Origin: Riemerella anatipestifer
GTDB taxonomy: Bacteria; Bacteroidota; Bacteroidia; Flavobacteriales; Weeksellaceae
Length of the DNA stretch: 64,000 nt
Reading direction: 5' to 3'
NCBI RefSeq assembly: GCF_009663465.1
Contig: NZ_QXHU01000004.1
Coordinates: 82,672 to 146,671 of the forward strand
Both the position numbers and the translations under genes were made by a program. Every line of letters starts with the position of its first letter. The first letter of the stretch is position 1. Below, one piece after another: positions 29,370-33,145 of this stretch. Below the pieces are notes generated by a model. The model worked only from the letters and a program-made list of their open reading frames with translations. It was not told the origin of the DNA and made no database searches.

Positions 29370-29763
<394 letters not shown>

Positions 29764-30218
29764 ATGAAAAAGATAGCCTTTAAAGGTTCATTATTTATTT
29801 TTTTAGGCTTTGGTCTGTCGGTATACGGGCAGTACAACGGTCGTGTAGGGATTAACACCATAGAGCCGCAGGCGACTTTAGACATCTCTAAAGTAGCTTT
29901 GGCGAATTTGCCCAAGGGGCGGGCACAAGGCGTGATACTTCCCAACATTAAGACCTCGGAGCGAAACATTTTTACTGGAGTAAAGGCGGGTACTATGATT
30001 TATAATACCACTAAAAATTGTATTGATTGGTACAATGGCACCCAATGGTCTTGTTTGGACGGTTCCCAAGCCGATATTCCGCCAGTTGTATCGTCAGCTT
30101 TTAAGAGTGGAGATAAACAGACGATTTCGGTTTATGATGCAAAACAATAGTTGCATTTGCTGAACTTTAGCTTCCTCTTACGGTGAGCGGCTTCGGCGAG
30201 CGTGGCATCAAGGATTAG
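29764..30218 (+). pseudogene. Collapsed Fib_succ_major-type surface protein
   Basis: An open frame of 128 residues (29764-30150) has the same N-terminus as the two genes that follow: signal peptide FIFLGFGLSVYGQY, RVGINTIEPQATLDISK, LPKGRAQGVILPNIKTSERN and TMIYNTTKNCIDWYNGTQWS. It then stops. About 40 bp further on, in another frame, 30189-30218 encodes GFGERGIKD and a stop, matching the GFSVRCIKD end of the next paralogue (24 of 31 bases). The middle and lectin-like domain have been lost by internal deletion. The 128-residue secreted remnant may still be made. Confidence 0.8.
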
Positions 30219-30332: not shown

Positions 30333-31937
30333 ATGAAAATAAAAATACCCTTGGGCGTTTTGGCTTTTTTAGGCTTTGGTCTGTCGGTGTATGGGCAGTA
30401 CGAGAAGCGTGTGGGCATTAACACACCCACACCTCAAGCCACTTTGGAAATAGCCAAAATAGAGTTGGCAAATTTGCCCGATGGTCACGTGCAGGGCGTG
30501 ATATTTCCCAAGTTAGAAACCTCAGAACGCAATACCTTTACCAGCAATGCAAAGGTAGGAACGATGATTTACAACCTCACCAAAAAGTGCATTGAGTGGT
30601 ATGATGGCACCCAATGGTCTTGCACGGACGGCACTCACGCCGATATTCCGCCTACGGTGGTTGAGGTTCCGTCAGTGCTCCAAATTAAAGGCACTGATAA
30701 ACGGATTGCATCGGTTTACGATGCGGATTTTCTTCCGTTCAGCACCCCTACGCAAGCGGCGAATTGGAACACCTCAATCCCTGCGGACGGAGCACCCGAA
30801 ACTATGACGATTGATTATCAAGGGAAGCTAACGACCAGCGGCTACGAGGTTCAGATTCCTGTGGTAGCTACGGGCTCGGGAACTTTGCCGGCTTATAGCG
30901 TTGGGACTTGGGTTTCTCCTGCGTACACTCAAAACGGAGTGGGGCGAATGGTGGTTTTATCTTGGGGAGAGCAGTCTTTTACTACGAGTACCCGTTGGAT
31001 TACGGCTTCGGTGAAGGCGTTGGGTGGCGATTTATTGGTGAAGAAGTTGGACATCAACGGCGGATTGGGAGCGGATATGAGCGGTAATTTGATGGCGTCC
31101 TTCCCACTTCCGGGGACAACGGAAAGATTTGAGCTAAGGGCGATAGCCGCCGTTCCTGATAGGTATTTTGATAAGAAAACCAATACGTATGCAGGAGGCG
31201 ATGCAAGCAGTTCTACTTGGGCAGCCAATGAATACGAACATCAGATGCTGTATGTCCCGATAAAGGGCTGGGACGGCAAAATATGGTTGAATATGAACTT
31301 GGGAGCTGACTATGCCAAGGCTGGAGGAAACGACTTTGATTTGAACGCTGCCTACACCAAGACCGACCATAAAGCCTACGGCTCCCTCTTCCAATGGCAG
31401 CGGAAAGCAGACGGGCACGAGCTTATCAACTGGACCTCTTCTACAAGTGGTACGCCTAAATATGGTACTACCACTACTTTATCTAATTCTTGGACGAACC
31501 CGGGGCACAGGAATTCTATCATAGGTAATGGTTTAGATTATTATTCTTGGGTTACTAATACCTTAAATAATGCAGCTACTAATAAGAACTTATGGCAGTC
31601 AGGGCAATCCAATAACCCTTGTCCTGTGGGGTATCATGTGCCTACTCACGCGGAGCAGATGGCTTTGCATAATGCGATTTTAGGTTATGATGCAGGTACT
31701 TCATTTACAAATTCTAATAAGATGTGGAACGAGCAAGTGCTCCGCCTGCCTGCTAGTGGTTACCGCAGCACCGGCAATGCCGCGATCAGCAATCGGAGCA
31801 GCACCGGCTACTTGTGGAGCAGCGAGCAGTACAGTAGCAACAACTCGTGGAGCCAATGGCTCAATAGCGGCGGTAGCGGCGCGGGTAGCGGTAGCTATCG
31901 TGCGGACGGCTTTAGCGTCCGCTGTATCAAGGATTAG
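30333..31937 (+). CDS. Secreted Fib_succ_major-domain protein, DGR-target-like
   Basis: 534 residues: signal peptide (about 1-23, ending SVYGQ), a VGINTPTPQATLEIAK segment as in Bacteroidota surface and fibre-like proteins, a less familiar beta-rich region (about 120-290), then a Fib_succ_major paralogous domain (about 300-534) with LNMNLGADYA, KAYGSLFQWQRKADGHEL, NPCPVGYHVPTHAEQ, LRLPASGYRS and a final RADGFSVRCIKD. This domain has the C-type-lectin fold and probably binds ligands outside the cell. From about 31755 the codons change to mainly AGC, GGC, GGT, TAC, AAC and AAT, unlike the rest of the gene. Function unknown; likely a surface adhesin or receptor. Confidence 0.85.
   Translation: MKIKIPLGVLAFLGFGLSVYGQYEKRVGINTPTPQATLEIAKIELANLPDGHVQGVIFPKLETSERNTFTSNAKVGTMIYNLTKKCIEWYDGTQWSCTDGTHADIPPTVVEVPSVLQIKGTDKRIASVYDADFLPFSTPTQAANWNTSIPADGAPETMTIDYQGKLTTSGYEVQIPVVATGSGTLPAYSVGTWVSPAYTQNGVGRMVVLSWGEQSFTTSTRWITASVKALGGDLLVKKLDINGGLGADMSGNLMASFPLPGTTERFELRAIAAVPDRYFDKKTNTYAGGDASSSTWAANEYEHQMLYVPIKGWDGKIWLNMNLGADYAKAGGNDFDLNAAYTKTDHKAYGSLFQWQRKADGHELINWTSSTSGTPKYGTTTTLSNSWTNPGHRNSIIGNGLDYYSWVTNTLNNAATNKNLWQSGQSNNPCPVGYHVPTHAEQMALHNAILGYDAGTSFTNSNKMWNEQVLRLPASGYRSTGNAAISNRSSTGYLWSSEQYSSNNSWSQWLNSGGSGAGSGSYRADGFSVRCIKD
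31725..31937 (+). other. Candidate DGR variable region
   Basis: The 3' end of the gene, encoding the ligand-facing end of the lectin-like domain. Of 60 sense codons from 31755 to 31934, 13 are AGC, and most others at exposed positions are GGC, GGT, TAC, AAC, AAT or AGT. All of these are one or two adenine changes away from AAC/AAT, the pattern left by adenine-specific mutagenic reverse transcription. Trp and other structural codons (TGG at 31815, 31848, 31857) are untouched. A 6-bp-arm hairpin (GCGGAC at 31902, GTCCGC at 31917) lies at the conserved end. The template and reverse transcriptase are not in this window. Confidence 0.55.
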
Positions 31938-32077: not shown

Positions 32078-33145
32078 ATGAAAATAAAGAAACACTTCAG
32101 CCTTTTGGCTTTCTTAGGCTTTGCCCTATGGGCATACGGGCAGTACGAAAAGCGTATGGGCATTAACACCGCCCAACCCAAAGCCACTTTGGAGGTGGCA
32201 GAGATGCCGATTGATGAGAATAATAAGGATAAACCTCAAGGCGTTATTTTCCCTCATATCAGTACCGCAGAACGGAACACCTTTACAAATGTACCCGAAG
32301 GCACAATGATTTATAACACCACCAAAAACTGCATCGACTGGTACGACGGGGCGGTATGGAAATGCACCAACGGCACACAGGTAGATGTGGCGTTTACTCC
32401 TTCGGAAAAGTGTTTAAGCCTCGTGTACGACCGCTGTTTCGGGAAGACCACTTTGGAATGTTTGGGCTATGGTGCCGATGTAAGGGAACACGATTTTATA
32501 TACTGTGAAATTCAAGGACCGGACGGCAGAAGATGGCTCAGCAATAACCTCGGAGCAGAATATGCACGAGTGGGTTCTTCGGTATTTGACCCGACAAAAC
32601 AAGCGACTTCCAAAACCGACCATAATGCGTACGGCTCTTTGTTCCAGTGGCAGCGTAAACCAGACGGGCACGAGTTGGTCAATTGGAGTGGAGCGGCAAG
32701 TGGGACTATGAAGTATGGGCACAACCCTACGCCTTCTACCTCGTGGACTATACCTGGGGACAACCGCTCAATGGGGAACTATACTCTTGTGTCGTGGGTT
32801 AAAGATGCGGTTAATATGGCTGGACCTTATAATTTGTGGGAAGTAAATGGTGAGAACAACCCTTGCCCCGACGGCTATCGTGTGCCTACCAATACGGAGT
32901 ATCAGGCTTTAGCAGCTTCTGCCACTCTGTGGAGTGAAACCACGATGAAATTGCCTGTGGCGGGATTCCGTGGTTGGAGTACTTCGTCCATTGCTTTGGG
33001 AAGTACAGGATTGGTGGGGCATTATTGGAGCAATAAAGGTAGTATAGACCAGGCTTATAGCCTCAAATTTAATGAGAGTAGTGTAGAGAGTAATCGTATA
33101 GAATATAGAGCCAATGGTTTCAGCGTAAGATGCATCAAAAATTAG
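32078..33145 (+). CDS. Secreted Fib_succ_major-domain protein
   Basis: 355 residues, paralogue of the preceding gene without its middle region. Signal peptide (about 1-22, ending WAYGQ), RMGINTAQPKATLEVAEMP, then the Fib_succ_major domain (about 125-355): WLSNNLGAEYARVGSSVF, NAYGSLFQWQRKPDGHEL, NPCPDGYRVPTNTEYQ, LPVAGFRGWS and RANGFSVRCIKN. The 3' end uses the ordinary AT-leaning codons of this genome, in contrast to the second paralogue. A long inverted repeat follows at 33266. Confidence 0.87.
   Translation: MKIKKHFSLLAFLGFALWAYGQYEKRMGINTAQPKATLEVAEMPIDENNKDKPQGVIFPHISTAERNTFTNVPEGTMIYNTTKNCIDWYDGAVWKCTNGTQVDVAFTPSEKCLSLVYDRCFGKTTLECLGYGADVREHDFIYCEIQGPDGRRWLSNNLGAEYARVGSSVFDPTKQATSKTDHNAYGSLFQWQRKPDGHELVNWSGAASGTMKYGHNPTPSTSWTIPGDNRSMGNYTLVSWVKDAVNMAGPYNLWEVNGENNPCPDGYRVPTNTEYQALAASATLWSETTMKLPVAGFRGWSTSSIALGSTGLVGHYWSNKGSIDQAYSLKFNESSVESNRIEYRANGFSVRCIKN

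Follow-up and report, generated by a model that had tools for sequence, protein, structure and literature searches.

The window, meaning the whole stretch of 64,000 nucleotides that was analysed, contains a cluster of related genes in which an intact target gene lies between a truncated paralogue and a further paralogue (Table 1). The N-terminus of the target gene product is of the type common to the family (VGINT..P.ATL.I), and its C-terminus is of the FISUMP type, matching TIGR02145 (E = 1.9e-8) and Fib_succ_major (PF09603, E = 3.1e-7); both matches lie slightly under the curated cut-offs and extend to the C-terminus. The putative variable segment forms the 3' end of a FISUMP-domain gene, the domain being assigned by profile match and having a predicted C-type-lectin (CLec) fold. 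Structure prediction gave the C-terminal domain a pLDDT of 37, and the model was set aside; a sequence search of solved structures with the product matched none. Among named genomes, the C-terminal domain matched only those of R. columbina and R. columbipharyngis, at 33–35% identity. By analogy with its domain and with other DGR targets, the product may act as a ligand-binding surface lectin.

Table 1. Features of the locus, with the two template copies of congener G066 (DGR, diversity-generating retroelement; VR, variable repeat; TR, template).
Feature	Position	Strand	Basis or remark
(AC)15 microsatellite, ending 204 bp before the first gene in the cluster	29530..29559	+	Conserved-flank search
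Truncated paralogue (128 aa), only the family N-terminus kept	29764..30150	+	ORF, protein search
Probable remnant of a VR 3' end behind the truncated paralogue, GGCTTCGGCGAGCGTGGCATCAAGGATTAG	30189..30218	+	Read by comparison with paralogue tails
Target gene, 534-aa secreted/surface FISUMP-domain protein	30333..31937	+	Intact ORF, profile matches
Almost certain DGR VR	31755..31937	+	Alignment with the congener template (183 bp); framework codons interspersed with hypervariable NNY codons
Hairpin in the VR 3' end, not considered functional	31902..31922	+	Folding, paralogue comparison
Paralogue with the same domain and no VR signature (internal negative control)	32078..33145	+	Codons, template comparison
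G066 template copies (two TR copies)	C1:1237157-1237339 (L064/L086); C1:782576-782758 (L066/L085)		

DGRs, an established type of element, use error-prone reverse transcription to rewrite the ends of particular genes. The codons of the target gene change character towards its end. AGC accounts for 13 of the final 60 sense codons and for 1.3% of those upstream; GC3 is 0.75 in the tail and 0.51 upstream, and codons ending in C or T (NNY) make up 78% of the tail and 53% of the upstream codons. The codons with which the downstream paralogue encodes the same protein end are ordinary (3 AGC, GC3 0.35). An earlier note on this DNA had described a sharp codon shift from 31755 to the stop, a Fib_succ_major-type domain end and a neighbour with the same end in ordinary codons, and the counts and profile matches agree with it on each of these. 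It had also placed a hairpin at the conserved 3' end. The hairpin does fold (−13.5 kcal/mol, GCGGACG pairing with CGTCCGC), but it is not conserved: its 5' arm consists of GCG GAC, two variable codons, and the stem is lost or far weaker with GCA AAC (as in the template, L003 and L008), GCG TAT or other codons. Because it depends on variable codons and is missing from the template and most paralogues, we consider it a by-product and rejected it as an IMH-associated structure.

A template for comparison is found in a congener, G066 (2.6 Mb in two contigs), where an AAC/AAT-rich 183-bp template lies ~0.67 kb downstream of each of two target genes (copy 1: NRNANNATLNNQSSNGWLWSSEQNNSNNSWNLWFNSGNSNAGNNNNRANGFSVRCLKD). 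The earlier note had expected an AAC/AAT template; one exists, but in this relative. Measured against this template of another species, none being present in its own genome, the tail of the target gene is changed at 23 of 59 A sites and 14 of 124 other bases (p = 2.6e-5), a strong bias towards adenines rather than exclusivity. The same comparison gives 24/59 A and 9/124 non-A changes for paralogue L004 (p = 1.4e-7), and 25/59 and 13/124 for paralogue L009 (p = 1.7e-6). Directly compared with L004, from its own genome, the target tail differs at 23/54 A sites and 10/111 non-A sites (p = 1.1e-6).

The 14 non-A differences include ten that are common to at least one paralogue in the same genome; these would be expected if the species had its own version of the template, and are probably mostly species-level framework differences. 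The four that are private to the target gene (31785, 31855, 31860 and 31886) look like drift, and two of them hit conserved framework residues (LWF to QWL). Adenines within framework codons (AGC AGC GAG CAG) are hardly ever altered in the tails, so selection must be invoked, and selection for S, N, Y or G at exposed sites could imitate part of the codon signal. On the adenine-biased divergence from the congener template and the codon-position statistics given below, the last 61 codons of the gene have almost certainly been rewritten as a DGR variable repeat, which is how the earlier note had interpreted this 3' end.

The target gene is one of many relatives in its genome. A protein search returned 61 stretches of the family, many matching the shared N-terminus alone, and 23 ORFs carry an RC-x-K/Q-type terminal motif once duplicate views are removed. 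Tested against the G066 template, five of these 23 tails pass the Bonferroni limit (L001b, which is the target gene, L004, L008, L009 and L029) and several others are nominally significant. The target gene is one of several dispersed genes whose tails fit a single template type: at least five, each significant by itself, and perhaps about a dozen. Paralogue L015 fits the other template type (A 20/51, non-A 9/123, p = 1.3e-6). The downstream paralogue has no adenine bias against the G066 template (26/55 A, 58/118 non-A, p = 0.65) and was dropped as a DGR target; eight further paralogues with the same domain likewise have neither the codon pattern nor the bias.

Two other features recur around the family. 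The microsatellite of the window is one of 27 (AC)n tracts in its genome with conserved flanks, TTTGGTAGTTCCAAATAATTGTGTAA-(AC)n, where n ranges from 11 to 28 among the 14 tracts read. At 24 of the 27 a FISUMP/VGINT-family gene starts on the same strand within ~1.5 kb downstream, where random points would give ~2%; the other three are directed towards a contig start ~1.2 kb away, and so off the contig. Tracts of the same type occur in 10 copies in G066 and 2 in G052. This arrangement suggests that they may be phase-variable promoter elements of the lectin family. A small HU-like gene lies directly 3' of several FISUMP genes in the genome of the window (e.g. C22:171299, C12:269557 and C24:17022).

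The machinery of a DGR was searched for in the draft assembly of this genome (26 contigs, 99.98% complete). An RVT_1 profile search found no reverse transcriptase (RT), and the RT of congener G034 (see below) had no match there at E values up to 10. Querying with the template recovered only VR-type copies, at most 82% identical, and no template, and a search for Avd gave no convincing match (the best being sub-threshold, with an E of 0.036 or worse). An own RT, template and Avd are thus all missing from the assembly. Phage, plasmid and viral collections contained only distant DGR RTs (<60% identity), with no exact match to the template or the 3' end in viral contigs or collections and no relative of the RT in viral contigs. 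The earlier note had proposed a remote DGR target and had named the lack of a template and an RT in the genome as evidence to the contrary. As both are absent from the assembly, we prefer an orphaned target to a remote target of a working DGR.

Complete DGRs are present in relatives. In congener G034 a FISUMP target is followed by a template, an open frame of 174 aa that weakly matches MutS_I, an RT (a 411-residue open frame with the motif GLPIGSLTSQ), an Avd-like gene (NF033474, E = 1.1e-8, below the cut-off) and, directly 3' of the cassette, a small HU-like gene (L062:4018-4437). The VR of G034 differs from its own template at 16/51 A and 1/123 non-A positions (p = 5.8e-9), which indicates that this target was diversified recently. 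In the complete genome G050, which belongs to a different genus of the family, the genes stand in the same order, including the HU-like gene, and the RT is related, at 53% identity. The G034 cassette sits upstream of rocD; the rocD locus in the genome of the window has no DGR cassette, and synteny of the two was rejected. A DGR in G170 (L114, C6:6000-16000) retains a template together with Avd-like and accessory genes, but its RT frame is shortened to ~277 aa, loses its similarity at the YVDD region and has insertion-sequence genes directly downstream; this DGR is apparently decaying. Across 197 family genomes, 3 have an RT clearly close to that of G034 and 10 have any match at E ≤ 1e-10. An RT in G077 was rejected as a DGR, as it lies among plasmid-like genes without a DGR motif or template.

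G066 itself has its templates, and a search of its assembly found no RT. The spacers of its two VR-spacer-TR cassettes are identical at 654 of 672 positions (~97%; 9 of the remaining positions are gaps), and the sequence downstream of both, including an IS982-like element, is 99% identical (1092/1100). The two VRs, on the other hand, differ at 33 of ~174 aligned bases. Because the spacers are nearly identical and the VRs have diverged, mutagenic homing took place after the duplication, without an RT adjoining either copy. The second template copy differs from the first at seven positions, all adenines and all in the 5' quarter; one template therefore appears to have been partly overwritten, that is, to have been a homing target itself. 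The RT of G066 must have lain in another part of the genome or on a separate replicon, and it is absent from the assembly.

Taken as a whole, these observations make it probable that the tail of the target gene is a DGR variable repeat and, most likely, the leftover target of a DGR that has been lost, because template, RT and Avd are absent and the target carries ordinary mutations. A DGR RT prone to errors at adenines would have copied an AAC/AAT-rich template RNA into cDNA, which would have replaced the 3' end of the gene. Ligand-facing residues of a lectin-like surface protein would thereby have been altered with framework codons kept; template and RT would then have been lost, and the target would have accumulated ordinary mutations. 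We infer that retrohoming into this gene took place in the past, that the machinery was truly lost and does not lie in a gap of the assembly, and that the protein binds ligands.

It is also conceivable, but in our view unlikely, that the gene is still an active target at a distance, its tail rewritten by an RT and template that the strain keeps on DNA missing from the assembly (an unassembled stretch or a lost replicon), or by the RT of a mobile element acting in trans. An RT cassette could lie in an assembly gap, since the draft is fragmented and FISUMP genes stand at several of its contig ends, and mutagenesis in G066 ran after duplication with no RT beside either cassette. However, the high completeness and the failure to find RT, Avd or template speak against this; moreover, even the nearest paralogue differs at ten non-A sites, which makes recent homing from a common template less likely. 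A broader proposal, speculative and a little less probable still, is that RT-less template-target cassettes like those of G066, duplicated beside IS982-like elements, form with dispersed targets of this genus a pool of non-autonomous DGR parts, on which RTs gained and lost from strain to strain act in trans; the large lectin family would then vary at two levels, being switched on and off by (AC)n slippage and having their binding face changed by retrohoming.

Recombination among paralogous tails, by gene conversion or segmental duplication combined with diversifying selection and with no DGR in the lineage of the window, would have ample donors in ~20 paralogues, and some paralogues have near-identical 3' flanks past the stop codon, which implies duplicated blocks. 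Gene conversion, however, would homogenise every codon position. Among seven tails from the genome of the window, pairwise differences at positions 1/2/3 number 454/423/321 per 1092 codon pairs, against 1092/1008/1686 per 3431 over 188 upstream codons of the same genes; the foreign template was used solely for aligning the tails, and the comparisons are non-independent and so carry no p-value. Expressed per codon, position 3 drops from 0.49 upstream to 0.29 in the tail, while the sum for positions 1+2 goes up from 0.61 to 0.80. Diversifying selection by itself would leave divergence at position 3 undiminished, and gene conversion by itself would not increase it at positions 1 and 2. Conservation of the third position together with diversification of the first two favours rewriting of AAY codons from one template, and the changes hit adenines of a template that actually exists in a congener, leaving the recombination account, already disfavoured, quite improbable. 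That the GC-rich and AGC-rich tail only reflects the unusual composition or codon usage of a lectin end rich in Ser, Gly and Asn can hardly be right, given the adenine bias of the target gene and the lack of the pattern in the downstream paralogue and eight others with the same domain.

On our preferred reading, the leftover of a lost DGR, surface lectins in a bird-associated Riemerella-like genus would have undergone hypermutation of the DGR type, a subject on which our literature search found no paper. The target gene would illustrate how DGR targets persist once the machinery is gone, and scans for DGRs by RT only would overlook such genes. G066 adds direct sequence evidence pointing to homing after cassette duplication without an adjacent RT, and to a template overwritten at adenines.

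The closest precedent is found in Treponema denticola, where isolates carry DGR target genes without RT or TR that were read as leftovers, their VRs differing from the template of a sister strain mostly at adenines (PMC4891356). That system belongs to another phylum, and the template used here comes from another species of the same genus. In the Bacuni phage DGR of Bacteroides uniformis, Fib_succ_major/DUF1566 genes likewise end in VRs, and Avd and RT are present (PMC8143477); among phage RTs, that of Bacuni is one of the closest matches to the G034 RT (~36% identity). This DGR, however, differs from the present case: it is phage-borne with the RT present, whereas the targets here are chromosomal and no RT was found. 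The DGR of Bordetella phage BPP-1 shares adenine-directed rewriting of a C-type-lectin-fold 3' end (PMC6642488, PMC3240598), but its target is a phage tail fibre, single and adjacent. Within the genus and the family, respectively, G034 and G050 provide FISUMP targets in the gene order described above. Unlike the target gene of the window, these stand in complete cassettes, and their templates end otherwise (type 2, 'GRPLRC' and 'GQPVRC') than the type-1 template that matches it.
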